A stretch of DNA of 53,389 nt from Coprothermobacterota bacterium (GTDB taxonomy: Bacteria > Caldisericota > JANLFM01): the NCBI GenBank assembly GCA_026389455.1, contig JAPLHV010000067.1:1-53389 (forward strand). Reading direction: 5' to 3'. Each line of letters starts with the position of its first letter. The stretch's first letter is position 1. Position numbers and translations under genes: made by a program. This document shows positions 3,358-52,519 of this stretch, one piece after another. Under the pieces are notes generated by a model. The model was not told the origin of the DNA and did no database searches. It saw only the letters and a program-made list of their open reading frames with translations.

Positions 3358-3437
3358 GTCTAGTGATCAAGTAGTTAAGTGGCCAAGTAGTTTAGTAAGC
3401 ACTTAGCCACTTAACTACTTAACTACTTAGCCACTTT
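3358..3437. repeat. Family B array
   Basis: gatcaagtagttaagtggccaagtagtttagtaagcacttagccacttaactacttaactacttagccactt. Confidence 0.92.
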
Positions 3438-6023: not shown

Positions 6024-6096
6024 GCAGTGATCAAGTGGTTTAGTGGTTTAGTGGTTTAGTAAGTACTTACCCACTTAACTACTTACCCACTTAAGG
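6024..6096. repeat. Family B array
   Basis: tgatcaagtggtttagtggtttagtggtttagtaagtacttacccacttaactacttacccactta. Confidence 0.92.
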
Positions 6097-9845: not shown

Positions 9846-9942
9846 ATTTAGTGATCAAGTGGTTTAGTTATCAAGTAGTTTAGTAGTTTAGTAAGCGCTT
9901 ACTCACTTACCCACTTAACTACTTGACTACTTAGCCACTTAC
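9846..9942. repeat. Family B array
   Basis: tgatcaagtggtttag...gtaagcgcttactcacttacccacttaactacttgactacttagccactta. Confidence 0.9.
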
Positions 9943-12317: not shown

Positions 12318-12424
12318 CAATCAAGTAGTCAAGTGGTTTAGTGATCAAGTGGTTTAGTGATCAAGTGGTTTAGTGATTTAGTAATTACTTACCCACCTAA
12401 CTACTTAACCACTTAATTACTGAA
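12318..12424. repeat. Family B array
   Basis: tcaagtgg tttagtga units then ccacttaa/ctacttaa units. Confidence 0.92.
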
Positions 12425-12439
12425 TTATACAGGCGCCAT

Positions 12440-15145
12440 TCATGGGAAGGCGGCTTCGGTCTGATACAGTTGATTAATCCCGTTCCAGTCGGCTGCGAAA
12501 AGGGAAAGATCCGTAGGCGGATTGAAGTCTAAGAACCGGCAATCGGAAATAAACTTCCCCACCTGCGGGACGCCCTGGGTCAAGTCCAGATGAAAACCCT
12601 GAAATCCGTTGGCTTTCCCTTGGAACCAGGTAAGCCCATCCTCGACCCAGAAAAGCGATGCACTCTCCTGGCCGATCGACTGGCTGGCGTAGAATTGCAA
12701 CTCGGGGTAGCGGAAAATCTGCAACTCGCTCCTCCCTTCCGCGCCCACTTGCAATGTCAGGAAGCGACCATCCGGAGACCAAACCGCCAGGCTGAGATCC
12801 CGCCCAGAGATCAGGGTGCGTTGGGCGCCCTCCAAATTGACCAGGCGAGCTTCATCGAGATTGCCCAGATGGACCAGGATCAGGATCTCGCTTCCATCCG
12901 GAGACCAACGATGGGCATAGATTTGCCCAGCTTCCTCCTGGACGAGCAGACGCGCATCACCGCCGTCAGCGTTCATCAGCCACAACTCCGGGTGTGCCGG
13001 ATCCAGCGCTTGGCGGTAGGCAACCCAGCCGCCCTGGGGAGATGGCAGCGGATTGCCGGCAGCGCCGCTGATGGTCAGTTGAGTCGCCTCACCGCCCCCC
13101 TCACCGGCGACCCAGATGTTGCTGTTGGCCCCTCCCCGGTCGAAGTAGAGCAGTTGGCTGTCCTCTGACCAGGCCGGGTGAGCGCCGGGGCCGAGGTCGC
13201 GAGACACGCTGCCGCTAGTTAACATGCTTCCGCGGGCTATCACTTCCAGGTCCATCCACTGCAAGCGACTGTTGCCGAGGAACTCTTCACTGTACGCCAA
13301 CCACTTCCCATTCGGGGAGAAGGATGCCTCCCTCTTCTCCCCCTCCGTCTCGGAGAGAGGCTGGTACTCTGATTTGACAGGAAGCAAGCGGGCTGTCAGC
13401 TCACGCGTCTCCCCCTCTGCCAAGGAGAATCGCAATCGCCAGTCCTGGTACGTCTCTTTCTTTAAGGTGAGGGAGACTGTACCCCCCTCGGAGAGGGTAA
13501 GGGTCGTGGGGGTGCGGCAGAGGTACTCATCATCCAAATACACTTCAGCAGCTTGGGGTTGTGAGGAGAGGGCCAGCTTACCGGCGGATAACAAGGGGGA
13601 GACGGCGAGCTCTTGCCCGGAGAAATCAGCTTGCCAAAGCCGGCGGAAACCGGTCGCATCGGAGCTATAGAGGAGGATCGCGCCGCCTTGGCTAAGAGCC
13701 AGTGAATTCAGGTTGCCGCCGTCGCGATAGATCTCGCGGGGCTCCCCCTCTCTTGGGTTCCAACGCCAAAGAGCGTTTTCCCCTTCCCCTTGAAGGAAGA
13801 GGAGCGGACCATCCGGAGTCCACAACAACTCGGTCGCCAACTGGGGGCAGAGAAGGGTTTCTTTCTCGCTAGTGAGGTCGTAGAGGAAAAGACCATCCCG
13901 GGATGCTGCCGCCAACTCTTGGCCGGAAGGAGACCAGGCCAAGGCGAAGCATTCCCTGCCCACTTGACTGAGAGCTCGATTGACGCTTGTCTGGAGCGAA
14001 AGCAAATAAATCCTCCCATCGGTTGCTGCCAGGTAGGCCAGCCAGTTGCCATCCGGGGAAAGGGCGAACCGTTCTACTGGGAAGCTGGAGAGATCATGCT
14101 GCCGCAAATTCTCAACCCGCAGGCTATCATGCTCCAGACTAGACAGTTGCTGATCGCTCATCGCTTCATGCAGGGTCAAGCGGGAATCACTTCCCCCCAA
14201 TGTGAGCAGTTGGTCACGGTTCAACCAAGCTATTTGGGCGAGGGCCTGCTCGGGGGAGGCGGTGCGGGTTACATTGCGGTCGCGGTCCCAGATCGCCAAT
14301 GAATCGCCGTTCGCTCCAGAGATCACGTAGGCCAGGCGCTTCCCATCCGGAGACCAAGCTGGGCGAACGATGGCCAACCCTTCCCGCACTTTCTCCACTT
14401 GCCCGCGCGTGACATTATCGCCTGCGGCAGCATTATAGCCCGCGGCAGCTCGATAGCCCCCGGCAGGGTGATACAGCCACAGCTCACCCGTCCCAGCGCG
14501 GAAATCTTCCTTGGAACCGAGAAAGGCGATGGTCTCGCTGTTCGGGGAAACAGAAAGGAGCGCGAATTGCTGCAAACCAGTCCTCTGTGCATTCGCCTCT
14601 CCGCTCTTGGAAACAAGCTTCACTTCCAATCGCAATGGGGCGCTGGAGAGAGCCATCACCATTTCCTCCCAAACCCGGAATCCTTCCTTGTGCAAAGCCA
14701 CACGGTGACTGCCTGGAGCCAGGCTTAGTCGCAACGGGGTGATCCCCACAACCTCGCCATCCAAGTAGACTGTCGCGCCTGGGATGTTGCTGAGTATTTC
14801 AGCTTTGCTCGGCGAGACGCTGCCGGTAGCGACCCCAAAGGAAAGGACGAAGAGCATCACCAGGGCCACTGCCGCTCGCCAGGCAACCGGCCAGGAACCA
14901 ACCCTGCCGGGCTGACGGCCTCTTCTCCTCTCGCGCAAGCGAGCCTCAAAGGCTTGCCAGTAGGCGGGGCTGTGAGCAGGAGTGTGGCAAGAAACCAACC
15001 AATCGCGCATCTCCTCCTGCTCGGCGAGATTTCGACGGCAATCCGCACATTCAGCCAGATGTTCTTCCACTCGAGCTCGTGCGGAAGAGCAAAGCTCCTG
15101 ATCTAAATAGGCGGCGAGGAAGCGCTCTTGCCGGCAGCGGCTCAT
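12440..15145 (-). CDS. Anti-sigma factor-like protein: zinc-finger N-term, TM, PEGA domains, TolB/WD40-like beta-propeller
   Basis: HLAECADCRRNLAEQEE; TM LVMLFVLSFGVATG; PEGA-like IPGATVYLDGEVVGITPLRLSLAPGSH and AAEVYLDDEYLCRTPTTL; repeated WSPDGKRLAY motifs; overlaps sigma gene by 4 nt. Confidence 0.85.
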   Translation of the reverse strand: MSRCRQERFLAAYLDQELCSSARARVEEHLAECADCRRNLAEQEEMRDWLVSCHTPAHSPAYWQAFEARLRERRRGRQPGRVGSWPVAWRAAVALVMLFVLSFGVATGSVSPSKAEILSNIPGATVYLDGEVVGITPLRLSLAPGSHRVALHKEGFRVWEEMVMALSSAPLRLEVKLVSKSGEANAQRTGLQQFALLSVSPNSETIAFLGSKEDFRAGTGELWLYHPAGGYRAAAGYNAAAGDNVTRGQVEKVREGLAIVRPAWSPDGKRLAYVISGANGDSLAIWDRDRNVTRTASPEQALAQIAWLNRDQLLTLGGSDSRLTLHEAMSDQQLSSLEHDSLRVENLRQHDLSSFPVERFALSPDGNWLAYLAATDGRIYLLSLQTSVNRALSQVGRECFALAWSPSGQELAAASRDGLFLYDLTSEKETLLCPQLATELLWTPDGPLLFLQGEGENALWRWNPREGEPREIYRDGGNLNSLALSQGGAILLYSSDATGFRRLWQADFSGQELAVSPLLSAGKLALSSQPQAAEVYLDDEYLCRTPTTLTLSEGGTVSLTLKKETYQDWRLRFSLAEGETRELTARLLPVKSEYQPLSETEGEKREASFSPNGKWLAYSEEFLGNSRLQWMDLEVIARGSMLTSGSVSRDLGPGAHPAWSEDSQLLYFDRGGANSNIWVAGEGGGEATQLTISGAAGNPLPSPQGGWVAYRQALDPAHPELWLMNADGGDARLLVQEEAGQIYAHRWSPDGSEILILVHLGNLDEARLVNLEGAQRTLISGRDLSLAVWSPDGRFLTLQVGAEGRSELQIFRYPELQFYASQSIGQESASLFWVEDGLTWFQGKANGFQGFHLDLTQGVPQVGKFISDCRFLDFNPPTDLSLFAADWNGINQLYQTEAAFP
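14410..14474 (+). repeat. Family A, three units inside the anti-sigma/TolB gene
   Basis: attatagcccgcggcagctcgatagcccccggcagggtgatac. Confidence 0.92.
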
Positions 15146-16289: not shown

Positions 16290-16680
16290 GTCGAAGTGGG
16301 GCAGATAGCCGCGAGAGTGCCGCCTTCGGGCTGGTTGCTCTCCAGAGCGGTTGGCCTCCGTCTTGTTACTGCAGATGCCGCACTGGGGTGCGGCGGTCCC
16401 AGGAAAGCCGACAATCCCAGGAATAGTCTCAGGGACGGTCTCAGTCTTGGGTGCAGTCTCATTCCCAGGAGCAGTCTCAGGGACAGTCTCAGTCTCAGAT
16501 TTGCCGCACTGAGGCGCCGCGGTTCCAGGGATAGTCATCCCCTTTTGTTCTTGAGGTCTCATCGACCCTGATATGGTTTACACCGGAATGGTCCTCGTAG
16601 GGGCGGGTTTCAAACCCGCCCACGCACGGGCTCTCTCTCTTAGTGATGCATCATTCTTCAGAACACCCTGCCGGGGGCTA
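16270..16680. repeat. Family C segment, copy 1
   Basis: Shares tcgaagtggggcagatagccgcgagagtgccg, ctggttgctctccagagcggt, gatgccgcactgggg, cggtcccaggaaagccga and gtaggggcgggtttcaaacccgcccacg with 53090..53389. Confidence 0.9.
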
Positions 16681-16682
16681 TC
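16659..16682 (-). repeat. Family A, inverted, joining C to B
   Basis: cagaacaccctgccgggggctatc. Confidence 0.93.
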
Positions 16683-16846
16683 AAGTGGTTAAGTGGTTTA
16701 GTGGTTTAGTGGTTTAGTGGTTTAGTGGTTTAGTGATTAAGTGGTTTAGTGATTTAGTGATTAAGTGGTCTAGTAGTTTAGTAACTACTTAATTACTTAA
16801 TTACTTACCTACTTAATTACTTACCTACTTAATTACTTAATTACTC
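16679..16846. repeat. Family B array
   Basis: gtggttta period 8, then aattactt/acctactt period 8. Confidence 0.93.
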
Positions 16847-16850
16847 GTGT

Positions 16851-19325
16851 TTACGCCCGGAACGATCGTAAACGAAGCGAGTTGGTCACTACGAAGACCG
16901 AGCTGAAGGCCATCGCCAGAGCGGCGATGATTGGGTTGAGGAGGATTCCGAAGAATGGGTAGAGGATGCCGGCGGCAATGGGGATTCCCAAGACGTTGTA
17001 AAGGAATGCCCAAAATAGGTTCCAGCGGATCGTCGCCATCGTCTGCCGGGCCAAGGCCAGCGCTTTCCCCACCCCACGCAGGTCACCCGAGACCAAGGCT
17101 ACGTCGGCCGACTCCAATGCCACATCAGTGCCTGTGCCCAGTGCGATGCCAAGGTCTGCTTGAGCCAGGGCGGGAGCGTCGTTGATGCCGTCACCGATCA
17201 TCAACACCCGCTTGCCTTGAGATTGCAGAGCCTTGATTTGATCAGTCTTGCCCGATGGCAACACTTGCGCCAGGACGCGATCGATTCCCAATTGTCTCGC
17301 CACAGCGTGTGCTGAAGCCTCTGTGTCGCCGGTGATCATCCACACCTCCAGGCCACCATTCTTTATCGTGGAGATCACCTCCTGCGCTTCCGGTTTCAAT
17401 GTATCACGGATCAACAAGGCGCCGCGGTATACACCGGCTACAGCTAGATAAAGAGCCGTAAACCCCTGTCCCTCGAAGGAACGCTCCAATTCCACAACTC
17501 CGGCTTCCTCCAGGTAGCGTGCGCTTCCCAAGAGTACCTCCTGCCCGCCCACGGAGGCTTGAACACCCAGCCCCGGCAATGCTTGGAACCCATCAGCCGC
17601 CGTTGGGGTGATCCCATTCTCGACTGCATAGGACCGCACCGCCTGGGCTAATGGATGCTCTGAGTCGCTCTCTACGCTGGCAGCGATGCTTAACAACTCC
17701 TCCTCGCTTCCTTGACTTGGGACGATTCTCTCCACCCTGGGTTTGCCGGCAGTGAGGGTGCCGGTCTTGTCGAAGATCACCGTATCCACCCGGCCGGCTT
17801 CCTCCAAGGCCTGTCCTGAACGGATCAGGATCCCCATCTGGGCCCCCCGGCCGGTCCCCACCATGATGGCGGTCGGGGTAGCCAATCCCAAGGCGCAGGG
17901 ACAAGCAATAACCAGCACCGCCACTGCGTTGTTCAGCGCCAACAAGTAGCTAGGCGCCGGTCCCAAGGCCCACCAAATCAGGAAGGTCAGGGCGGCAATC
18001 CCCAAGACAATGGGGACAAAGATCGCGGCGATGCGATCAGCCAACTTCTGGACAGGGGCTTTGCTGCCCTGCGCATCCTCCACCAGGCGGACCACTTGAG
18101 CCAGGAATGTATCTTTCCCAACTCGCTCAGCTCGGAAGCGTAACGACCCGGAACCATTGATGGTAGCTCCGGTAACGAGATCACCCAGCCTCTTGGGAAC
18201 GGGGAAAGCCTCTCCAGTTACCATCGATTCGTCGACTTCAGAGCTCCCCTCTTCGATCCGTCCGTCCACTGGGATGCGCTCTCCCGGACGAACCAGAAGG
18301 AGGTCGCCGACTTGCACTGCCTCTGCCGGCGCCACGCTCTCCACCCCGTCGCGGATAACCGTGGCGGTGGGAGGCTGAAGATTCATCAGGTGACGAATAG
18401 CTTGCGAGGTGCGGCCTTTTGCCTTGGCTTCCAGATATTTACCGAAGAGGATCAGGGTAATTATGACTGCCGAAGTGTCGAAATAGGTAGCGCTGGGGAG
18501 GCCGGATTGTTCCAGCGTCGAAGGGAAGAAAGTGACGAAAACAGAGTAGAGGTAAGCCGCTGAAGTGCCCAATGCTACCAGGGTGTTCATGTCGGTGGCG
18601 CCGTGACGTAAAGCTCCCCAGGCGCCGCGGTAGAATCGCCACCCAGCCCAGAATTGAACCGGCGTTGCCAAAACCAGGAGGAGATAGGGATTGGCCAACC
18701 AGGTCGGGAAGCCAGGGACCATCCCCAGCATCGAGCCGGCCAGGATTACCAGGGAAAGGGCTGCGCTGACCCACAGGCGCAAGGCCAGATCGCGCTGTTC
18801 TCGGCGACGGGCTTCCACCTCGCGGTCGCGGTTTTCACCTACCAGAGTAGCCGTGTATCCGGCTTCCTCGACTGCCCGGATCACCTCCTTTGGCTGGAGC
18901 AACCCAACCATATAATCTACATAGGCTCTCTCAGTTGCTAAGTTGACTTGAACGGAAAGAACGCTGGGGAGAGAGCGAATCGCCTCTTCGACATGGGCTG
19001 CACAAGTGGCGCAAGTCATTCCCCCGATCAAGAAAGTAGTGCGATCCTGCAGCACATCGAAGCCGGATTCGCGGATGGAACGCGCCACATCAGCGATACG
19101 CCCATCTTCCACAAGCAGGGAGGCGCTCTCGTTGGCCAGATTCACGACCACTTCGAGAACGCCCTCCGTCTGCATCAAGGCCTCCTCGAGGTGAGTCACG
19201 CAGGAGGCGCAGGTCATCCCGATAATCGGGATCTTAACAGAACGCCCTGCCGGGGGCTGTCTAGCCGCCGGGGGCTGTCTAGCCGCCGGGGGCTGTCTAG
19301 CCGCCGGGGGCTGTCTAGAACTCAT
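16851..19325 (-). CDS. copA: Copper-translocating P1B-type ATPase with repeat-encoded N-terminus; ATGA overlap with upstream YHS gene
   Basis: Two HMA domains (GMTCASC, GMTCATC), [28 protein letters not shown]-term [28 protein letters not shown] encoded by repeat A. Confidence 0.94.
19238..19318 (-). repeat. Family A, four 18-bp units inside copA 5' end
   Basis: ctgtctagccgccggggg period 18. Confidence 0.95.
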
Positions 19326-20916: not shown

Positions 20917-21801
20917 ATGAAGGTCGATCTCCACACTCACAGTACGGCCTCCGACGGTTGCCTGAACCCGGCGGAGTTGGTGCGCCATGCTTGCCGGGAA
21001 GGGCTCGCTTTGCTCTCGCTCACCGATCATGACACCGCTGTCGGCCTTGCTGAAGCCGAGCAGGCCAGCCGTTCCACTCCACTCCGTTTCGTCCCCGGGA
21101 TCGAGTTTTCCACCGAAGTGGAACAAGCCGAGGTGCATATTCTTGGCTATTGGCTGGACTTTGATTCCCGATTGCTCAAGGATTTCCTCGAGCGCCTCGG
21201 TCAGTCCCGGCGGGAGCGCATCCGGCGAATGGTAGGTGAGCTGCAAAAGCTGGGAATGCACCTCCAGGCTGACGAAATTTTAGAAAGCAAACTGTCCGGG
21301 GTTTTCGGCCGTCCTCATGTCGCCTTGGCCTTGGTGCAACATGGCTATGCTTCCAACGTGGAGGATGCCTTCGCTCGTTACCTGAAGATCGGAAAACCCG
21401 CCTATGTACCGCACCGTAAGCTCTCTCCTTGGCAAGTGGTGAGCCTGGCGGTCAAGGTGGGTGGGCTTGCCGTGATGGCTCACCCAGGACTCTCCGCTCG
21501 TGACGACTTGATCCCCTCGCTTGTTCGAGAGGGTCTAGGAGGGCTGGAGGTCTACTACCCCGAACACAACCCAAGCCAAGTCCACCGCTATCTTGACTTG
21601 GCCCGGGAGGCAGACATCCTCATCACCGGCGGTTCAGATTTCCACGGACCAGCAGTCCACCACCATCCAACCGGTGGCAACTTGAGAGAGCGCGGCAGCT
21701 TACCAGCCCCCGGCAGGGCGTCCCATTCCCCGCTGGGAAGCGCCAACTTGCCAGCCGAAGACGTTGAACGCTTCCTGGCTTGGGGCAGAGCTCACAAGTA
21801 G
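20917..21801 (+). CDS. PHP-domain phosphoesterase
   Basis: MKVDLHTHSTASDG, LTDHDT, AHPGLSARDDLIP, GGSDFHG; repeat A within C-terminal part. Confidence 0.88.
   Translation: MKVDLHTHSTASDGCLNPAELVRHACREGLALLSLTDHDTAVGLAEAEQASRSTPLRFVPGIEFSTEVEQAEVHILGYWLDFDSRLLKDFLERLGQSRRERIRRMVGELQKLGMHLQADEILESKLSGVFGRPHVALALVQHGYASNVEDAFARYLKIGKPAYVPHRKLSPWQVVSLAVKVGGLAVMAHPGLSARDDLIPSLVREGLGGLEVYYPEHNPSQVHRYLDLAREADILITGGSDFHGPAVHHHPTGGNLRERGSLPAPGRASHSPLGSANLPAEDVERFLAWGRAHK
21689..21724 (+). repeat. Family A, two units inside PHP gene
   Basis: gcgcggcagcttaccagcccccggcagggcgtccc. Confidence 0.88.
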
Positions 21802-24292: not shown

Positions 24293-24308
24293 CGGAATAC
24301 CACGCTTC

Positions 24309-24386
24309 CTAGTTCAGTAGTTAAGTAATTAAGTAGGTAAGTAATTAAGTAATTAAGTAGTTACTAAACCACTTAACCACTTGATA
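24309..24386. repeat. Family B array
   Basis: agttaagtaattaagtaggtaagtaattaag...actaaaccacttaaccacttgat. Confidence 0.9.
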
Positions 24387-26965: not shown

Positions 26966-27765
26966 TGGCACGGGTTTTCTGGCTGCCGACGGAATGCCTT
27001 CAACCCGACAGAGACGCGCTGCCGAGGGTTATCGAGCTGCCGCGGGTTATCGAGCCGCCGCGGGTTATTTTCTTCCCTCCCGAGGAACGCCATCATCTTC
27101 TCCATGTCCTGCGCAAGAAAGCAGGAGACAGTGTCGATGTCCTCTGTGGCGGCCAACGCCTACAGGTGGAACTTTTCCTCCGGGGAGAGGCGCTCCTTGG
27201 AAAAATCCTCCAAACCCAGGCTATTCAGCCGCCTCTCTTTTCGTTGAACCTGGCTCAGGGCTTGCCCAAAGGTCGCAAGATGGAACAAGTCGTCACCTTG
27301 GCTGGACAAGTCGGGGTGCATCGCTTGTTGCCCTTTCACTCCCTTCGCTCCATCCCCCGCCTGGACGATGCCGAAAGCAAGCGGAAATGGGAGCGCTGGC
27401 AGCGTTTGGCTGACGAGGAGGCCAAGGTGACCGGTTCCCCACCTTTGCAGGTCGCTCCTCTCTCAACTCTCGAGGAGATCCTGCACCAGGGTGCAAGTGC
27501 CGGTCTTCGCCTGTTCTGCTGGGAAAACGCCGAGCGATCTCTCCTGGATACTCTGGAAATAACACCAACCTTTCCTGAGGCGGGTATCTTGGTGATCGGC
27601 CCGGAGGGAGGTTTCGCCCCCGAGGAAGCCCGGTTGGCCGAGCAGTCCGGCTTCCAGGCAGTACACCTGGGAGAGCGTATCCTTCGTACGGAAGTAGCCG
27701 GTTTAGTGGCTGCTGTTCTTATCCTGGAGCGCGGCGGCGCCTTCCGCCTACCCTTTTCCCCTTGA
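26965..27765 (+). CDS. rsmE: 16S rRNA (uracil-1498-N3)-methyltransferase RsmE with repeat-encoded N-terminal stretch
   Basis: PPEERHHLLHVLRKKAGDSV, VLVIGPEGGFAPEEARLAEQSGFQAVHLGERILRTEVAG; LPRVIELPRVIEPPRVI from repeat A. Confidence 0.92.
   Translation: MARVFWLPTECLQPDRDALPRVIELPRVIEPPRVIFFPPEERHHLLHVLRKKAGDSVDVLCGGQRLQVELFLRGEALLGKILQTQAIQPPLFSLNLAQGLPKGRKMEQVVTLAGQVGVHRLLPFHSLRSIPRLDDAESKRKWERWQRLADEEAKVTGSPPLQVAPLSTLEEILHQGASAGLRLFCWENAERSLLDTLEITPTFPEAGILVIGPEGGFAPEEARLAEQSGFQAVHLGERILRTEVAGLVAAVLILERGGAFRLPFSP
27010..27070 (-). repeat. Family A, three units inside rsmE 5' end
   Basis: ctgccgagggttatcgag / ctgccgcgggttatcgag / ccgccgcgggttat. Confidence 0.9.
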
Positions 27766-29054
27766 GAATCTCGCTGGCCGTTCTCGGCTGCAAGATCTCG
27801 CAATACGACGCTGCCCACTTGGAGGAGCGCCTTCGCCAAGCCGGGGCGGAGATCACTCCTCCCTCACCGGAAAGCCAGGCTTTCCTGCTGTGCGGTTGCG
27901 CCGTCACCGAACGCGCTGCCCGCGAGGCCGGACAGGTTGCCCGCCGCCTCCAGCGCTTGAACCCGAATGCTCCTCTTTATTACTACGGTTGCATCGGCGC
28001 TTACTTTGCAAATCAGCCGGAACACCTTGCCGGGGGCTGTTCTACTGCCGGGAGCTGTTCTACTGCCGGGAGCTGTTCTAGCTTGATAGCCCCCGGCAGG
28101 GTGTCCTATCAAGCCTGCTGCTTCCCGCCTGGTTCTGAGGTTGCATTGCTGGAAGCCCTCGGTCTTTCCTCCCCAGCCCCTGTGAGTTCCGGCAGCAGTT
28201 GGCGCCGCACTCGCGGCTTGGTGAAAGTACAGGACGGTTGCAGTCACTTCTGCGCCTACTGTATCGTGCCGTATTTGCGCGGCCCGGCTAAAAGCCGACC
28301 CATCCTTGAGGTGGAAGGGGAAGTGGCAGATCTGCTCAGTCGAGGTTTCCGCGAGGTGGCGTTATCGGGGGTTCACCTCTCATCATGGGGACATGACCTA
28401 GGCGGCTCCACCCTAATAGATCTTCTCCAATGCCTGGACCGCCTGCCAGGGTTGGATCGTCTGCGATTGAGCTCGCTGGAGCCGATGGACCTGAGCCCCC
28501 AGACAGTGGCAAGCTTCCGCACCATCGAGCATCTCTGTCCGCACCTCCATCTCCCGTTGCAAAGCGGCTCTGATTCTATTCTGCAGCGCATGGGTCGCGG
28601 CTATGACCGGGCTCACTACCTGCGTTTGGTCGAAGCGGCGCGGGCCGCCTGGCCGGAGGTAGCTCTGACCACTGACATCCTGATCGGTTTCCCTGGGGAG
28701 AGCGAGCAGGATTTCCAAGCTACTTTGGAGACCATCGAGGCAGTCAGTTTCGCTCGTTTGCACCTTTTTCGCTACTCTCCCCGGCCGGGCACCCCTGCTG
28801 CTTCGATGACCGGCTCCATTGACGAGAGGGAGAAACGCCGACGCCTAGAACGCTTGCGTTCTCTTGCTGAAGCTCTTCCCGGCCGCTTCCGCCGTCGTTT
28901 TCTGGGTCGCTCCTTCCCAGTATTGGTGGAACGGATCAGGGAAAACCAGGCCGGCGGTTTCACTCCCAACTACATTCACCTCACCTTCCCAGCTTGGCCT
29001 GGTCTGGAAGTGGGCCAACCGGTCGAGGTGAAGGTGAGCGAGGAAGAGCCTTGA
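27762..29054 (+). CDS. mtaB: tRNA t6A37 methylthiotransferase MtaB (MiaB-like radical SAM) with internal repeat insertion
   Basis: VQDGCSHFCAYCIVPYLRG; GVHLSSWG; HLHLPLQSGSDSILQRMGRGYDR; AGGCSTAGSCSTAGSCSSLIAPGRV from repeat A. Confidence 0.92.
   Translation: MRISLAVLGCKISQYDAAHLEERLRQAGAEITPPSPESQAFLLCGCAVTERAAREAGQVARRLQRLNPNAPLYYYGCIGAYFANQPEHLAGGCSTAGSCSTAGSCSSLIAPGRVSYQACCFPPGSEVALLEALGLSSPAPVSSGSSWRRTRGLVKVQDGCSHFCAYCIVPYLRGPAKSRPILEVEGEVADLLSRGFREVALSGVHLSSWGHDLGGSTLIDLLQCLDRLPGLDRLRLSSLEPMDLSPQTVASFRTIEHLCPHLHLPLQSGSDSILQRMGRGYDRAHYLRLVEAARAAWPEVALTTDILIGFPGESEQDFQATLETIEAVSFARLHLFRYSPRPGTPAASMTGSIDEREKRRRLERLRSLAEALPGRFRRRFLGRSFPVLVERIRENQAGGFTPNYIHLTFPAWPGLEVGQPVEVKVSEEEP
28019..28107. 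repeat. Family A inverted pair inside mtaB
   Basis: ggaacaccttgccgggggctgttcta...(x3) followed by cttgatagcccccggcagggtgtcct. Confidence 0.93.
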
Positions 29055-29202
29055 CAAGGTTAACGAGATGAAGACAGATTGCCTCTTCTGCCGTATAATA
29101 CGGGGCAATGTGGCTGCCACTCGGGTGTACGAGGACGATAAGACGTTGGTTATCCAGGATCTTCACCCCCGCGCCTCGGTATGTTGGTTGTTGCTACCCA
29201 AA

Positions 29203-29233
29203 GCATGCCCTCGAGCGAAGCGAAGGATGCATG
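29203..29233. repeat. Palindromic insertion gcatgccctcgagcgaagcgaaggatgcatg inside HIT remnant
   Basis: Adds ACPRAKRRM between LLLPK and HVASLLEV; ends are partially inverted (gcatgccct / aggatgcatg). Confidence 0.6.
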
Positions 29234-29366
29234 TGGCAAGCCTCTTAGAAGTAGAGGACTCAGAATTTCTCAGCGTTTTACTGCTTACAGGGCGCCGGTT
29301 GGCGCAAGAGCGGGGCCTGACCGGACCGAAAGGAAACTGTGTCGGACCTCGCAGGTTTCGCATTAC

Positions 29367-29411
29367 AGGACACCCTACCGGGGGCTGTGATGCTGCCGCA
29401 GGCTGTCTCCA
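29367..29411 (-). repeat. Family A inside HIT remnant (left, inverted)
   Basis: aggacaccctaccgggggctgtgatgctgccgcaggctgtct. Confidence 0.88.
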
Positions 29412-29440
29412 ATTGTGGATCTGGGGCGGGCAGACCATCT

Positions 29441-29466
29441 ATCTAGCCCCCGGCAGGGTGATACTT
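29441..29466 (+). repeat. Family A inside HIT remnant (right)
   Basis: ctagcccccggcagggtgatact. Confidence 0.9.
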
Positions 29467-29542
29467 GAACGTCCATCTCCTAGGGGGACGGATCCTTCCG
29501 TCCCGCCCTGGATAGACTTAGCGACGGAAGGAGGGGTGAGGA

Positions 29543-29722
29543 ATGGCCGAAGTGAAGCGCAGGCCTAACGAGTCTGTAGACGAGTTGGTCAAGCGTTTTA
29601 AGAAGCAGGTCCAAAAAGAGGGGATCATGAAAGAAATCAAACGGCGAGAGTATTTCGTGTCTCCTTCGGTCTTGCGTCGGAAGAAAGCAGCCGCCCGGCG
29701 TAAGAAAGCCTCTACAGAATAG
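29543..29722 (+). CDS. rpsU: 30S ribosomal protein S21 (59 aa; below ORF-track cutoff)
   Basis: MAEVKRRPNESVDELVKRFKKQVQKEGIMKEIKRREYFVSPSVLRRKKAAARRKKASTE read from DNA; preceded by gaggggtgagga. Confidence 0.92.
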   Translation: MAEVKRRPNESVDELVKRFKKQVQKEGIMKEIKRREYFVSPSVLRRKKAAARRKKASTE

Positions 29723-34718: not shown

Positions 34719-34757
34719 GGATTCTCCGTTTGCGAAAAATGACCGGGATCCCCTTAT

Positions 34758-34852
34758 ATAAGTAGTCAAGTAGTTAAGTGGCTAAGTAGTTAAGTGGCTA
34801 AGTAGTTACTAAACTACTAAACCACTGGATCACTAGACCACTGGATCACTAG
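34758..34852. repeat. Family B array
   Basis: aagtagtcaagtagttaagtggctaag...actaaactactaaaccactggatcactag. Confidence 0.9.
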
Positions 34853-34875
34853 ACAGCCCCCGGCAGGGTGTTCTG
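34848..34875 (+). repeat. Family A adjoining B upstream of CNNM copy 3
   Basis: actagacagcccccggcagggtgttctg. Confidence 0.92.
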
Positions 34876-44264: not shown

Positions 44265-46832
44265 TTATTTCCAGGGCAGGCGGATGGTCACCTTGGTTCC
44301 TTTCCCCTCCTCGCTGGTCAGGAGGAGGGCGCCGCCGTGCTCCTCGACGATGCGGCGGGAGACGTAGAGACCCAGGCCGGTGCCGGGCGCCCCCCGGAGC
44401 TCGGCCGAGCGACCGCGTCGGAAGGGTTGGAAGAGTTGCTCTTGTTCTTGGGCGGAGATGCCGAGTCCATGGTCTTCCACCTCTAGAATGAGAGTCTGGT
44501 CTTCCAGTTTTAGGCGGACCTCGACCTTTCCTCCTTTGGGTGAGAACTTGACAGCGTTGGTCAGCAGGTTCTCCACCACCCGGGCGAGGGCTTCCTCATC
44601 GCAGGCGCCTTGGGGTACGGGTTTCAGTTTCAGGTCTAAGGTCGCCTGGGGAGCGATGGCGTAGTTAGTCAGGTTCTCCGCCACCCGCTTGACTATCTCC
44701 ACCGGATCGCAGAGAGCAAGAAGGAGAGGAAAGCGACTTTCCTCGCTGCGCTGGCTGTCCACCAGATTGTTAATCATCCTATCCAGACGCTGTAGATTAC
44801 GAACCCAAACCTTTCCGTATTCCCCCCACTTTTCTGGGGAGGACTCCATCATTTCTTTCGATTGATTCAACAACATCAACGGTGTCTTCAATTCATGGGA
44901 AACAGCAAAGAGAAGGGTTGTACGGGCTTCTTCCAATTTTTCGCTCTCCCGTTTGCGAGAGGTGATGTCGGTGGCGATGCCCTCGCAACCAACAATTGTG
45001 CCGGCCACGTCTCTGACAGGAACTCCATTCGAACTGTGCCAACGCCAGGATCCGTCGGCGTGCTGCACACGGTACTCGATGCCCGTTTGTCGTTGTCCCG
45101 TCTCGATCACAGACTGCAGAAACACCTGATATCTCTCGAAGTCATCCGGGTGGACGAATTGCTGGAATGATCTCCCCACGACCTGATCTGTCGGGCGCCC
45201 CAGGAGCACGGTCCAACCAGGGGAAACGAAGGTCAATACACCATCTAAGTCTAGCGTATAGATGATGTCGTGGCTGTTCTCGATCAATAGACGGTACTTC
45301 TCTTCGCTCTCCCGCAAGGCTTCTTCGGCCAGTTTACGGTCAGTGATGTCGATGGTGTATCCGCCGAGAATGGTCGGGCGATTCGGTATGGAAATCGGAA
45401 ATTTCATGCTAAAGAAGTGCCGCCCCTCAAAAGTCTCTTCCCGCTCAATAGCGCAGCCTTCTTTCATAACCCTTTCATCATCCGCCCGCATTCCGGCAGC
45501 CAATTCCGGGGGCCAGAGTTCCTCGCTGGTTTTGCCAAGCAATTGAGACAAAGGCTTTCCTAACATCTTTTCAAAATGATGGCTCAATACGACAGCGCGA
45601 GTATCTTCATCTTTGATGAAAACAGGATTGGGGCAATAGCGCATAAATAAAGACAGTTTCTCCTCGCTCTCCCACAGGGCTTCCTCCGCCCGCTTGCGCT
45701 CGGTGATATCACGGATCGACCCTTCCACATATTTGGGGTTCCCCTGCTCGTCCCTGATCAGATGGCTGGAGACCGAAACCGACAGGCGCCTTCCATCCCG
45801 ATGCAACAGGGTGAGTTCGTAGTCGGAAACCTCGCCCTCTCTGCGGAGTCTCTCCAGGAGAGCTTTTCGCTGTTCCGGGTCGGGGTAGAGTTCCAGAACC
45901 TGGCGCCCGATCAGCTCTTCGGGCTTCCAACCGGAGAGAATGAAACAGGAGGGGGAGAGATTGGCGATGAGCCCCTGCATGTCGGTCTGGTAATAGAGGT
46001 CAGTGAAGTTGTTGAATACCGAACGGTACTTCTCCTCGCTCTTCCGCAGCGCCTCTTCCGCCTGTTTGCGCTCAGTGATGTCATTGATGCTGGACAGAAT
46101 GCAGAGTCCCTGGCTCAACTGGATTGTCTGAGCAGAGTACAAGCCCGTTCTCACCTCACCACTCTTCGTCCGGAATTGGGCCTCCCGACCAACAACTTCC
46201 CGACCAGCGCGAAGCTCAGCCACCAGATACTGTCTATCCTCTTCATTGACCCATATCTTCAGTCCGACCGACAAGTCAGTGAGAGCTTCTGCTCGTGTAA
46301 TCCCCGTTATGGAGATGAAAGTATCGTTAACCTCGATATATGTGCCGTCCTCCATGCGGGAAATGACGATGGCGTAGGGCGACGATTTGAACGCCTTGGA
46401 GAACTTTTCCTCGCTCTCCCGCAGTTCCTCCTCCGCCTGTAACTTGGCCTGGTGAGACGCTTTCCGCTCCAGGGCGTTGCGCACGACCAAAGGCAGCCGC
46501 ATCAGGCTGGATTTCAAGAGATAGTCTTGCGCCCCTTCTTTCATCACCCGGGCGGCAATCTCCTCCGATTGGCTCCCCGTGACCAAGATGAAAGGAACCC
46601 CGGGCGATTGCTGGTTGACGATGAGCAAGGCTTCCAGGGCGTTGAACGACGGCAGGGCGTAGTCGGCCAGGATCAGATCGGGCTGGAAGTCCGCCAAAGC
46701 CCGACGGAACTCCAGCTCCGTCTCCACCCGCAGCGAGATGAACCGGATGCCGGCCTGGCGCAGCTCGACCTCCACCAGTTCCGCATCTCGAGGAACGTCC
46801 TCCAACATCAGGATCCGCAGTGTTTCGCCCAT
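44265..46832 (-). CDS. Hybrid sensor: N-terminal receiver, multiple PAS domains, HisKA/HATPase
   Basis: N-term REC (ILMLEDVPRDAELVEVELRQAG), PAS/PAC repeats ([12 protein letters not shown]), H-box AVSHELKTPL. Confidence 0.9.
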   Translation of the reverse strand: MGETLRILMLEDVPRDAELVEVELRQAGIRFISLRVETELEFRRALADFQPDLILADYALPSFNALEALLIVNQQSPGVPFILVTGSQSEEIAARVMKEGAQDYLLKSSLMRLPLVVRNALERKASHQAKLQAEEELRESEEKFSKAFKSSPYAIVISRMEDGTYIEVNDTFISITGITRAEALTDLSVGLKIWVNEEDRQYLVAELRAGREVVGREAQFRTKSGEVRTGLYSAQTIQLSQGLCILSSINDITERKQAEEALRKSEEKYRSVFNNFTDLYYQTDMQGLIANLSPSCFILSGWKPEELIGRQVLELYPDPEQRKALLERLRREGEVSDYELTLLHRDGRRLSVSVSSHLIRDEQGNPKYVEGSIRDITERKRAEEALWESEEKLSLFMRYCPNPVFIKDEDTRAVVLSHHFEKMLGKPLSQLLGKTSEELWPPELAAGMRADDERVMKEGCAIEREETFEGRHFFSMKFPISIPNRPTILGGYTIDITDRKLAEEALRESEEKYRLLIENSHDIIYTLDLDGVLTFVSPGWTVLLGRPTDQVVGRSFQQFVHPDDFERYQVFLQSVIETGQRQTGIEYRVQHADGSWRWHSSNGVPVRDVAGTIVGCEGIATDITSRKRESEKLEEARTTLLFAVSHELKTPLMLLNQSKEMMESSPEKWGEYGKVWVRNLQRLDRMINNLVDSQRSEESRFPLLLALCDPVEIVKRVAENLTNYAIAPQATLDLKLKPVPQGACDEEALARVVENLLTNAVKFSPKGGKVEVRLKLEDQTLILEVEDHGLGISAQEQEQLFQPFRRGRSAELRGAPGTGLGLYVSRRIVEEHGGALLLTSEEGKGTKVTIRLPWK

Positions 46833-46867
46833 CGCTTTCTCCTTCGGTCCGATCCTTGGCAGTGCCG

Positions 46868-47311
46868 CTAGCGAGGCGGTTGGTTCAACAGCAGCCAGTA
46901 CAGACCCAATTCGGAGATGGACTTCACGAAATTGTCAAAGTCCACCGGTTTAGTGATGTAGCTGTTGGCGCCCAGATGATAGCTTTCCACGATGTCCCGT
47001 TCCTCCTGGGAGGAGGTCAGCACCACCACAGGCGCCAGTTTAGTGCGCTCGTCGGACTTGATCGCCCGCAGCACTTCCAAGCCGCTGACCTTGGGCAGCT
47101 TCAAATCCAAGAGCACCACTTTCGGCAGGGCTTCCACGTCCCGCTGCGCGTAAGCGCCTTTGGCAAAGAGAAAATCCAGCGCTTCCGCCCCGTCCTCCAC
47201 CACCTGGATCCGATTGGCCAGCTTGTTCTCTCTTAAGGCTCGCAAGGTCAGCTCCACGTCGTTGGGGTTGTCCTCCACCAGCAGGATCTCTACCGCGTCG
47301 TATTGCTCCAT
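46868..47311 (-). CDS. Single-domain response regulator (Rcp1-like)
   Basis: [64 protein letters not shown]. Confidence 0.93.
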
Positions 47312-47312
47312 T

Positions 47313-49592
47313 TCATTCTCCTTTCGGTAAGGTGAAAGCAAAGGTGGCGCCTTCACCCACTGTTCCGTCCGCCTGGACCTCGCCGCCCAAGCGGTGAATC
47401 ACGCGTTGCACGATGGCCAGCCCTACGCCGGTTCCTTCAAACTCCCGGGTGGAATGCAGACGCTGGAAGACGCCAAACAGCTTGTCGGCGTAATGCATGT
47501 CGAAGCCGACGCCATTGTCCTTGACCGAATAGCGGTTCATGCCGCCTTCGCTCTGGCTGCCGATTTCAATCCGGGCTGGGTCGCGGCCCCGGGTGAACTT
47601 GACGGCGTTGGAGAGCAGGTTGAACCAAACCTGGCGCAGCATCGCCGGATCGCCCAAGGCCGGAGGGAGCGAGTTCATCACCAGCTCCAGGGGCCGACCG
47701 GGATTGGCCGTGCACAATTCTGCAAAAACCGAATGAGCAGGTTTTTCCATGTCCACCTTCGATATTCGCAGTTCTTGCCGCCCCAGGCGAGAAAACATCA
47801 GCAGATCCTCGATCAATTGCCCCATCTGTTGGGCGCTCGATCGAATTACCTGCAGCAAACGCTCCTGCTCGCCATCCAGATGCCCGGCAGTCGCAGTCAA
47901 GAGCAGCCGGGAGAATCCGTCGATGGCCCGCAGGGGAGAGCGCAAATCGTGCGACACGGAATAGGAAAAGGCCTCCAGCTCCTTGACCGCGTCTTCCAGC
48001 TCTGCCGTTCGTTCTTTCACCCGCTGCTCCAGCTCGGCGTTCAGTTTCCGGATGGCTTCCTCCGCCTGCTTGCGCTCGGTGATGTCATAATTTGTGCCGA
48101 TCAGTTTGGTTGGTTGGCCGGCTGCGTCACGATGCACACTGGCGCGGGCGCGGATGTGGCGGATGGCGCCGTTCGGCCAGACAACGCGGAACTCCGTGTC
48201 GAATTCCTTTTCGCCTCGCAACGCCATCTGAACTTCTGCGTCTCCTCGCTCTACATCTTCCGGATGAACTCTCGCCTTCCACGTCTCGTAAGCGCCGCTG
48301 AAATTATCCGGCGCGATCCCGTAGAGACGAAACATCTGGTCATCCCAGATTAGCTCGTTATTGACAACATCTAAATCCCAGATACCCACGCCGCCTGCGG
48401 CAGTGGCTAGCGCCAGGCGTTCGGAGGATTGCCGCAGGGTCTCTTCGGCCAGTTTGCGGTCAGTGATGTCCCGTGCTAAACCTGTAAAGTTGATGAAGTC
48501 TCCACTCTCGTTGCGCACCACGTTTCCCTTGGTCATGTGCCAGCGCCACTCTCCCGATGCATGACGGACACGGTATTCGGTCCCGGCAGTCTGCAAACCT
48601 TCTTCTAAGTAACGACGCAATGCACCCTGGACAGCCGGCAAGTCTTCCGGGTGTATCAGGGAATTGAAATCACGGCCAATAAGTTCGGTTTGGCTATAAC
48701 CCAGCACGGCGCCCATCGAAGGGGACACGTAAATAAACTCTCCCTTCGGGTTGAGAGAAAAGATGACATCACGGCTATTCTCCACTATCAGCCTGTATTT
48801 CTCCTCGCTCTCCCGCAGCGCCTCCTCAGCTCGTTTGCGTTCGGTGATGTCAATGATATGAGACAGAATGCAAGTTCCTTGACTTAGCTTGATTATCTTG
48901 GCGGAGAACAACCCCACAAAAGTTTCACCACTTTTTCGTCGGAAGAAATACTCTTGGTCCATCACAACCCGGCCGGCCCGAAGATCAGCCACAACCTGCT
49001 GCCGATCTTTTTCATTGACCCATAACTTCATTGCTATCGACGAGTTGACAAGAGCTTCTTCTCGAGTGAACCCTGACACTGAAGTAAAGGTATCGTTGAC
49101 CTCGACGAACTTGCCGTCCTCCGCCCTCGTGATGATGATGACGTAGGGCGTAATCTGGAAAACCTTGGAGTACTTCTCTTTGCTCTCCCGCAGCGCTTCC
49201 TCGGCTTGCACGCGGTCGGTGATGTCCCAGGATGTACCGAGGATGCCGATCACCTCGTCGGGTGAATCCCGGAAGATCGACTTGATCGTATGGACGTGGA
49301 ATTCCTGACCGTCCTTGTCATAGCTCTCCTCGATGTTTTCCGACTGGCCGGTTTCCAAGATGCGCATGTCGTCCGCCCGGTACTTTTCCGCCAGCTCTGG
49401 CGGGTAGAGGTCATAGTCACTCCGGCCGAAGATCTCTCTGGGCTTCATGCCGTGATCAGCGGCGTAGTTCTCGTTACAGGCCAGATAGGTTAAGTCGCGG
49501 CCTTTCAGAAAGATCTTGAAGGGTAGGTTCCCGACGAAGAGTTTCTCCCAGCTTTCCACCCAACCAGCCGTCAATTTCTCCGGATGTGGCAT
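47313..49592 (-). CDS. Multi-PAS sensor histidine kinase
   Basis: Four PAS/PAC units, H-box [22 protein letters not shown], HATPase; stop is 1 nt before response regulator ATG. Confidence 0.93.
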
Positions 49593-49599
49593 CTAAGCA

Positions 49600-49617
49600 G
49601 CCTGCGGCAGCATGTCT
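49600..49617. repeat. A-prime variant upstream of multi-PAS kinase
   Basis: gcctgcggcagcatgtct. Confidence 0.7.
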
Positions 49618-50080
49618 AGTCTCCATTCAATCATCGGCTGAAGCTATGGGGGGGACAGATTCCATCGGAGCTATTGGGACAGGTTAATATCTGTCTCCAT
49701 TGCTCCGATTCCCTGCTACGCTTTGAATTGTATCGTCTCGATCGGGCGAAAGATAGCCGCAGATCTCCGTATTTTCGTTAATTACTCCCAGGGCGGCCTT
49801 GTCCCCATCCAAGGCTGGAACACTCTCCGCATTCCGCCCCTGGGTGATTCTCAGGAGAAACTGCCGAATCAGATCTCAATCTGATTGAAACAAGAATCGC
49901 GAGTTTGAGCGAAATGAAAGGTCAAGCGCGCGGTGGCACTGCACCCGCGCGCAAAGGGCTCCCATGATCCTCGGTTCGGTTGCCTGGTTAAATGGTTGAA
50001 CGCGTTGCATCCGCACGCCTTTGCCATGGTTCCTTGCTCCAGGCTGTTGAGCCCTTCTAGGATGCCATCAGCCTCTGACT

Positions 50081-52519
50081 CTAGGAGGCAGGAGCGGGTA
50101 TCAGCGGCAGACGAACCTGAAATGAGGCGCCGCGGCCGATCTCGCTTTGCGCCTGGATAGTTCCGCCATGGGCTTCCACCAGCCAACGGACAATAAAAAG
50201 GCCCAAACCGGAGCCGTGATGCTTTCCGCTGCCCCGATAAAAACGCTCAAAGAGATGCGGCAAATGCTCTGGCGCGATTCCTGGCCCGTTGTCGGTGACC
50301 GATAGAATCGCCCATTCCCCTTCGGTTTCCAGGGAAAGCAGGATGGTTCCGTCTAGAGGGGTAAACTTGATGGCATTTTCGAGCAGGTTCGAGACGATCT
50401 CTTCCAGTCGTCCTCGGTCCGCTTCCACCCATACCGGCTGGTCAGGAAGCTCTACCGTGCAGCGGATCTTCTTCTCTTGGCAAACCGGCCTCTCCAGCAG
50501 GGCAAATTCCGCCAGGAAAGGGCCCAGGACAATTGGTTCTTTACGCAGGGCCAAATCACCGGTATCGATGCGAGCTGCTTCCATCAAGTTACGGGTCAAC
50601 CCGGACAATCGTTCCGTATTGCGTTTCATGATATGCACGTACTCAACCATCCTAGGCCCCAACTCGCCTGACTCGACGGGCGCCAGTTCCAAGGCGGCTT
50701 GAATGGCAGCGATAGGGTTGGACAAATCATGCACTACCGTGCGGATCATGTCCGCTTGCATCTGTTGAGCTTGTTTGCGCTCGCTGAGGTCACGCGCAAT
50801 CCCTGTCAGGAAGATCTCCCCTCCAGATCGCCAGGCAGCCAGCGAGAGCTCCAAGGGGAACTCCCTGCCATCCTTGCGCAGGCCGGTCGATTCCCTGGAA
50901 AGGTTGGTCAGCCTAGCGAACTCTTCATCTCGAACATTGCCAAGCTGCTCTTCAATATGTGCTTTGGAATGCTCGGGAAAGAGCCATAGGAATGATCGCC
51001 CCAAGGCTTCTTGCTCCGTGTAACCGAACAGGAGCTCTGCCGCCTGGTTCCAGAAAGCGATTCGGTTTTCCCCGTCGATCGAGATGATCGCGTCGGACGC
51101 GGAAGAGGCCAACGAACGGAAACGTTCTTCGCTGGAGATCAATGATTCTCGGATCCTGCTGTTCACCAAGGCCACGCTGATCAATTCGGTAAAAGCGGAT
51201 GCGATCCGCGAGTCCTCCTGACTGAATCCGTTTTCCTTGTCCACCAACCCAAGAAGGCCCGCCACTTGTCCATCAATCAGCAAGGGAGCGAAGAGAATAC
51301 TCTCATCGTCGGCATCGCAGTCGGGGGAGAAATCTCGCAAGGGGTTTCGGGTCGCTCGATTTTCCCAGACCACCCGGCCGTTCCTGTAAGCCTCTTCGCG
51401 CATACCGTGAAGCGGGACGAACAGTTCGGGGTCAAACGCAACCTGGAACACGCCTGTAGCTAATACAAGAGCTTCTGTCCGGCTTTCCTGCTCGTTGCGC
51501 AAGGTCAATACGCCGGCGCGAGCCCCCACCAGCTCACGGCATTGATCGACAATGGTTCGGGATACCTCATGGAAGGAATTTAACGAAAGGATGGCGCGGG
51601 TTCCTTTCAGCAATGCCAAGGTCTCCTCTTGGTGCTTGTGCGAATCTCGCAGCGCTTCTTCCAGTGCATCCTCGACCCTTTTCCGCTCGGTGATGTCCCG
51701 ATTGACCACCACAAGACCCTCAGCCTCCCCCTGGCGATCACAAAGAAGGGATACCGAGGAGTGGACAATGATCGTCGCTCCATCTCTCCTGGTTTGCCGA
51801 AGTTCCCCTTGCCAATGACCCTCGCTGAGGATCTCTTCCGTGGCTTGTGGTTGGCTTGTCGTCAGGTATTCCGTGTGTAGGAGGGCAGCGGTGTGCCGGC
51901 CTAGCGCTTCCTGTGCCGTCCACTGGTAAAGGACTTCTGCTCCTTTGCTCCAGCTTAGAATCTGTTGCTCCAAGTCGGTGGAGATGATGGCATCGCGGAT
52001 GTTCCCCAGTAAACCCGCCTGGCGGAGAGCCTCTGCCTCGGCCTGTTTGCGCTCCAGCGCCCGGCGCACTGCCTGTGCCAGAACAGAGGGTGTAACCTGA
52101 TCTTTCACCAGGTAATCCATCGCCCCCTGCCGCAAGGTTGAGACAGCCAAAGCGGTGTCCTGGGAGGAGGAGAGGATAACCACGGGAACGTTCGGAACCT
52201 GCCGAGAAAGCCGGCGAAAGGTAGATTCAGCTTCGCTGTCGGGGAGGGTGAGATCCAATAAGACGAGATCAACCCTGTCTCTTGCCAGCAGCATCAGTCC
52301 ATCAACCAGCGTGTTCACCGCTTCCAAGCGCCACTTTGGTTCGACTTGCTCCAACATGTGTTGGACTGAAAGCACAAAAACAGCGCTATCTTCAATCAGC
52401 AAGATCCGCAAAGCGCCTCGTGTATCCATTGCGTCTCCCTCTCGGCCGTTGCAAAGTGGCTGCTCCAACGGCTCGTCTACAACTTTAGCTTGTCTTCCGC
52501 CTTGTGTGAAGATTTCCAT
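50081..52519 (-). CDS. Hybrid sensor: N-terminal receiver, PAS, GAF, PAS, histidine kinase
   Basis: REC (ILLIEDSAVFVLSVQHMLEQ), PAS, GAF-like region, H-box RTVVHDLSNPIAAIQAALE, HATPase. Confidence 0.9.
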   Translation of the reverse strand: MEIFTQGGRQAKVVDEPLEQPLCNGREGDAMDTRGALRILLIEDSAVFVLSVQHMLEQVEPKWRLEAVNTLVDGLMLLARDRVDLVLLDLTLPDSEAESTFRRLSRQVPNVPVVILSSSQDTALAVSTLRQGAMDYLVKDQVTPSVLAQAVRRALERKQAEAEALRQAGLLGNIRDAIISTDLEQQILSWSKGAEVLYQWTAQEALGRHTAALLHTEYLTTSQPQATEEILSEGHWQGELRQTRRDGATIIVHSSVSLLCDRQGEAEGLVVVNRDITERKRVEDALEEALRDSHKHQEETLALLKGTRAILSLNSFHEVSRTIVDQCRELVGARAGVLTLRNEQESRTEALVLATGVFQVAFDPELFVPLHGMREEAYRNGRVVWENRATRNPLRDFSPDCDADDESILFAPLLIDGQVAGLLGLVDKENGFSQEDSRIASAFTELISVALVNSRIRESLISSEERFRSLASSASDAIISIDGENRIAFWNQAAELLFGYTEQEALGRSFLWLFPEHSKAHIEEQLGNVRDEEFARLTNLSRESTGLRKDGREFPLELSLAAWRSGGEIFLTGIARDLSERKQAQQMQADMIRTVVHDLSNPIAAIQAALELAPVESGELGPRMVEYVHIMKRNTERLSGLTRNLMEAARIDTGDLALRKEPIVLGPFLAEFALLERPVCQEKKIRCTVELPDQPVWVEADRGRLEEIVSNLLENAIKFTPLDGTILLSLETEGEWAILSVTDNGPGIAPEHLPHLFERFYRGSGKHHGSGLGLFIVRWLVEAHGGTIQAQSEIGRGASFQVRLPLIPAPAS

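Follow-up and report, generated by a model that had tools for sequence, protein, structure and literature searches.

A short dispersed repeat growing in 18-bp steps is the likely source of an in-frame segment in a probable mtaB gene of a Coprothermobacterota bacterium

The segment inserted in a probable mtaB gene of a Coprothermobacterota bacterium is most likely a copy of a dispersed repeat, lineage-specific, non-autonomous and selfish-looking, that grows in tandem steps of 18 bp. The gene, which would encode a tRNA-modifying enzyme, lies in a stretch of 53,389 nucleotides, called the window here, from a fragmented metagenome assembly of 2.63 Mb in 263 contigs (G000). This genome was compared with its sole congeneric genome, a sister species that is also a fragmented metagenome assembly (G001; 280 contigs), and with genomes from two other genera of the same family (G002, G003 and G004). 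Statistics cover 390 kb of sequence from G000 and 0.97 Mb from G001, and the table of ortholog lengths is based on 0.80 Mb of G001. The sampled G000 contigs were picked for carrying matches, so the G000 densities per kb exceed the genome average. The coordinates of the features are listed in Table 1.

Table 1. Features of the probable mtaB gene and of other repeat loci in the window
Feature	Position	Strand	Description
Methylthiotransferase gene, MiaB/RimO family, probably mtaB	27762..29054	+	430 aa, TTG start; TIGR00089, TIGR01579
In-frame insert	28019..28107	+	About 30 codons missing in the G002 and G004 orthologues
Left array, three 18-bp units	28020..28080	-	Linker TAGAAC; cores AGCTCCCGGCAG twice, then AGCCCCCGGCAA, end GGTGTTC
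Centre GTTCTAGCTTGAT between the two arms	28075..28087	.	Equals the G001 centre as reverse complement
Right unit AGCCCCCGGCAGGGTGTCC	28088..28106	+	Identical in G001
Second array, in frame in the adjacent rsmE gene	27013..27068	-	Peptide RVIELPRVIEPPRVI; 54 bp missing in G001
Four-unit array, in frame, N-terminus of a P-type ATPase	19240..19312	-	72 bp missing in G001
Three-unit in-frame array in a 901-aa minus-strand ORF	14419..14472	+	54 bp missing in G001
Unit in a gene	21705..21723	+	G001 has a different dialect at the site
Inverted unit pair in a decayed HIT-family gene	29368..29463	.	From sequence, ORFs and G001 comparison

In profile searches, the 430-aa ORF scores above the curated cut-off of TIGR00089, the model of the MiaB/RimO family. 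The best specific model is MtaB (TIGR01579; 3e-96, 323 bits), but this score is under that model's own cut-off of 357, so the mtaB name used in a preliminary description of this DNA is likely yet uncertain, while the family assignment stands. The insert reads GGAACACCTTGCCGGGGGCTGTTCT-ACTGCCGGGAGCTGTTCT-ACTGCCGGGAGCTGTTCT-AGCTTGAT-AGCCCCCGGCAGGGTGTCCT. Its layout agrees with that description: three 18-bp units in one orientation are followed, after a 13-bp centre, by one unit in the opposite orientation. Tandem Repeats Finder reports a period of 18 with 2.9 copies and 97% matches at 28028-28080. The units of the left array are not identical, since the outer core differs from both inner cores. 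The frame is open throughout the insert and the radical-SAM core is intact, its CxxxCxxC cysteines (C160, C164 and C167) being invariant in the ortholog alignment; the preserved frame and the radical-SAM motifs had been noted in that description.

The sister species has an insert at the same site that is 18 bp shorter, equal to one unit fewer, and is written in a different unit dialect. A homologous insert in unrelated lineages, which the preliminary description named as a refuting observation, was looked for and not found: only the congeneric G001 shares it, and the orthologues of G002, G003 and G004 lack it. Compared with G002 and G004, G000 has about 30 extra residues and G001 has 24 (90 and 72 bp, five and four 18-bp steps), with approximate placement in the alignment. 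Outgroups established the polarity of filled and empty sites for mtaB only. The right unit is the same in the two congeners and the left arm is divergent. The linker of the left array occurs three times as TAGAAC in G000 and twice as CTTGAT in G001, and each matches its local flank. The two 13-bp centres align only as reverse complements (score of 9 versus 1). An inversion between the arms is plausible but not proven, because random centres assembled from other linkers score 9 in 2.4% of draws.

The preliminary description had proposed a strong hairpin and an unusual Cys/Ser/Gly segment. The hairpin beats chance in G000, both as RNA (-56.6 kcal/mol, z of -5.3 compared with shuffled sequence) and as DNA (-27.8 kcal/mol, z of -6.4), but the G001 insert folds more weakly as DNA (-17.6 kcal/mol). 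In an AlphaFold2 model of MtaB with a mean pLDDT of 81, residues 89-116 are the sole long stretch with a pLDDT below 50. This stretch separates the N-terminal domain from the radical-SAM core, the location that had been given for the segment. Its Cys/Ser/Gly character is not shared by the G001 insert (AAAGYQAATGYQARQAPGRVSYQ), which encodes a different peptide with no cysteine. A new metal site formed by the insert cysteines was rejected since G001 does without them. The model predicts that the insert is a disordered, floppy linker between the two domains. The simplest reading is that MtaB tolerates the insert as a flexible interdomain linker rather than using it, and we infer that it is neutral in this protein.

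If the segment were instead a regulatory hairpin or a functional protein segment, selected for its RNA structure or its peptide, the strong RNA fold predicted in G000 would be expected, as would its persistence at one shared site in both species, whose MtaB proteins are 88% identical. We regard such selection as very improbable. The sister insert combines a weaker fold and a different peptide with one unit fewer, the protein segment is predicted to be disordered, and the same repeat DNA is found in six frames across unrelated genes.

The repeat unit consists of AGCCCCCGGCAG and a 6-bp linker, ending in GGTGTYC, and no other repeat is as common in the sampled G000 genome. Its membership in a dispersed family, suggested earlier, is borne out by 243 exact copies of the end AGCCCCCGGCAGGGYGTNC in G000. 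The same end occurs 28 times in G001 and twice in G003, with no copies in G002, G004 and 56 further genomes, and a reversed control pattern gave no matches. There are 335 adjacent unit pairs in G000 compared with 11 in G001 and none in a further 52 genomes from the phylum. In the window, the end motif with up to two mismatches occurs 22 times, whereas shuffles predict 0.00. The counts of AGCCTGCGGCAGCATGTYY are 97 in G000, 26 in G001 and 46 in G003, with none in G002 and G004. Judging from these counts, AGCCTGCGGCAGCATGTYY looks like an older dialect, and the dialect called A here seems to be derived and recently expanded in G000.

Arrays contain one to eight units and follow a simple grammar, in which AGCCCCCGGCAG plus a 6-bp linker is repeated and the array terminates in AGCCCCCGGCAG plus GG[T/C/A]GTYC. 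The ends are constant, while internal linkers (for example CTCGAT, CTAGAC, CTTGAT and CATGAC) are alike within arrays and unlike between them; neighbouring linkers are identical in 100 of 119 pairs within arrays versus 13% expected. Inner units of one array also have variant cores in common (GGCAA or GGCAT, for example), and the unit at the end mostly has the canonical sequence. The linker matches the 6 bp preceding the array with at most one mismatch in 22 of 87 cases (shuffles: mean 9.9, maximum 18). This points to local duplication of the core together with the adjoining 6 bp, for part of the arrays only. A rule that the linker always equals the target flank is only partly true on these numbers. 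Since CTCGAT, CTAGAC and CTTGAT are found as linkers in many arrays, not every linker can be derived from its own target.

Within the 390 kb of G000, 44 of 121 loci fall in called genes, which cover 322 kb, and 69 fall in the 68 kb of non-coding DNA, as delimited by a simple hexamer-based gene caller. In this sample of match-bearing contigs, the density is about 0.14 loci per kb in coding and 1.0 per kb in non-coding DNA. Host genes confirmed with Pfam encode DnaE, in which the copy sits inside the HHH_6 domain, Maf, RpiB, LonB (AAA), a prolidase-like M24 peptidase and a P-type ATPase. The genic copies occupy all six frames and thus encode six kinds of hexapeptide repeat, exemplified by SPRQLD, APGSMT, PPAARQ, PAGGYQ, LPGAVM and CRGLSS. 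This use of six frames is the behavior of a DNA-level element and is unlike selection for one peptide.

Ten gene sites, hand-picked for unique flanks, differ in length between G000 and G001 by 54, 72, 18, 54, 18, 0, 18, 21, 36 and 147 bp, and all ten values are multiples of three. Six non-coding sites differ by 110, 62, 75, 91, 72 and 72 bp; three of these values are divisible by three. No obvious target-site duplication was seen at the junctions of the sites compared with G001. Errors of assembly or binning, or expansion of a GC-rich repeat during sequencing, are hardly credible as the source of these arrays. Tandem arrays can be mis-sized in fragmented metagenome assemblies like these two, but the second species has the mtaB insert at the same position and in frame, the gene-site differences preserve codons throughout, and the 243 ends in G000 were counted as exact matches.

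Other sites in the two species are found in several states. Copies at 14419, 19241 and 27013 in the window, and others, correspond to empty sites in G001, and some shared sites, such as that at 34855, are identical in both species. At two loci (C33:5038 and C8:24790), a unit is located at the same place in both species, written in dialect A in G000 but in dialect B in G001, with flanks that align at about 90%. Two units are inserted in the HIT-family gene next to mtaB (29068-29568). One of them, at 29445, is a 19-bp insertion at the position of ATCTACCAC in G001, where the catalytic His motif begins, so the gene seems to be broken. The G001 copy of this gene carries sequence resembling an 8-mer repeat.

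The dispersed-repeat reading suggests the following course of events, in which seeding, growth and homogenisation would be separate steps. A basic piece of about 19 bp (AGCCCCCGGCAG plus GGTGTYC) would enter new sites, at times twice in opposite orientation. It would then grow locally by tandem duplication of the 18-bp step, in which a 12-bp core is joined to a 6-bp linker specific to the site. There is good support for growth in 18-bp steps, and we infer local duplication as the growth step. Selection would remove frame-shifting insertions from genes and, because the step is 18 bp, the surviving genic copies would add whole codons. The mtaB hairpin would be a by-product of two units placed head to head; it would not be specially evolved, because the repeat has also spread to many other genomic sites and enzymes. 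The constant array ends suggest that dispersal may depend on a recombinase acting in trans. No mobilising enzyme was identified when RAYT linkage and reverse transcriptase were examined.

Several origins were rejected. A MITE or IS with terminal inverted repeats was set aside because most loci have a single end type and a single orientation. RT-based systems (diversity-generating retroelements, retrons and group II introns) were dismissed with 0 RVT_1 matches in G000-G004, whose genomes are 86-98% complete. Rfam gave only a tRNA in the four stretches scanned, and IMG/VR gave no exact match that would indicate a viral origin.

REP/REPIN elements are associated with RAYT transposases (PMC3116915, PMC3733652). 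An element of this type would consist of inverted palindromic units that are moved as single strands by a RAYT (Y1) transposase encoded elsewhere. The repeat resembles such elements in being short and of high copy number, and the mtaB copy, like a few other loci, is an inverted doublet able to form a hairpin. There are also eight Y1/RAYT matches in each of G000 and G001, and a Y1 enzyme acting in trans would account for the missing target duplication. We nonetheless consider this origin unlikely. The family motif was not found in the flanks of ten RAYT loci, for which the genomes are incomplete and the flanks short, and a RAYT gene of G000 (in L155) is flanked by inverted repeats of AAGGGGACAGATTT instead. 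G002 and G004 carry RAYT genes yet have no copies of the repeat. The inverted pair stressed in the preliminary description, like the Cys/Ser/Gly character, is not supported as what defines the element: only 5 of 121 loci have both orientations and the other 116 have one, so the inverted doublet, unlike in REP/REPIN, is not the replicating unit. A single unit barely folds, no better than shuffles. Many copies are intragenic, and neither the GTAG nor the CGTC palindrome tag was recognised in the array consensus. The RAYT-like Y1 gene in L155 and its AAGGGGACAGATTT repeats are observed as a separate REP-like family in G000.

The original Nostoc work on small dispersed repeats is that of Elhai and colleagues. 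These repeats are about 20 bp long, tandem and possibly mobile (PMC2884548). The family described here is like them in unit size, dispersal, arrays of variable copy number, suspected mobility and lack of coding capacity; its unit is 18-19 bp with 243 exact ends in 2.63 Mb, and mobility is seen as filled versus empty orthologous sites. It is unlike them in that a third of the loci sampled here occur in frame within genes, core enzymes among them, and in its strict 18-bp step, its constant array end and its species-specific dialects at the same sites. Rickettsia palindromic elements (RPEs) are 100-150 bp long and inserted in frame (PMC3767692), and those of Rickettsia and Wolbachia enter genes at tolerant positions (PMC3767692, PMC3733652). 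By description, our repeat is like both in being dispersed in frame within pre-existing genes. It differs from the longer RPE palindromes in its short unit, which folding indicates is non-palindromic, and in its arrays of mostly one orientation. PARCELs have one conserved 25-residue motif in one frame (PMC2996958); they too are tandem DNA repeats that code for a repeated peptide, whereas the present family yields six unrelated hexapeptides from six frames. By analogy, therefore, the family resembles small dispersed repeats in how it spreads and RPEs in how it invades genes.

Dispersed DNA repeats that invade genes in frame are known chiefly from Rickettsia and Wolbachia. The present family does so with an 18-19 bp unit, in a lineage outside the Proteobacteria, with core enzymes such as DnaE as hosts and with the use of six frames. 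Since two congeneric genomes capture filled, empty, one-unit-different and dialect-switched sites, they are usable as a natural experiment on how proteins gain new loops and how very short repeats spread with no visible transposase. The dialect-switched orthologous sites, with dialect A (AGCCCCCGGCAGGGNGTTC) in one species and dialect B (AGCCTGCGGCAGCATGTTC) of equal length in the other, together with the apparently inverted mtaB centre, also allow a more tentative, rather doubtful idea: the family might be a hitherto undescribed class of very short mobile repeat that enters coding sequence in steps of 18 bp, keeping codons whole, and rewrites resident copies in place. If so, the lineage would have dedicated machinery for genome-wide conversion or insertion.

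Other repeats were observed alongside the 18-bp family. Inverted arrays of an 8-bp repeat (TTAGTGAT/CAAGTGGT type) occupy intergenic DNA, frequently with an 18-bp unit attached, at 2180-2360, 3362-3436, 6026-6094, 9848-9942, 12320-12425, 16680-16848, 24306-24385 and 34757-34854; their frequency is about 105 per Mb in the sampled G000 sequence and 10 per Mb in G001. The palindromic repeat GTAGGGGCGGGTTTGAAACCCGCCC (L044:4789-8550) reaches about 67 per Mb in the sampled G000 sequence against 15 per Mb in G001, at times nested with 18-bp units. A longer interspersed repeat of several hundred bp (L045:12700-13250 and L066:5360-6110), with copies about 70-90% identical, is present in both species and has 18-bp arrays nested inside; the L066 copy had no Rfam match. 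Finally, at 45291-51700, a coding repeat of 31-67 nt recurs seven to nine times within large minus-strand ORFs, spaced about 360-384 bp apart, and probably reflects repeated sensor (PAS-like) domains.
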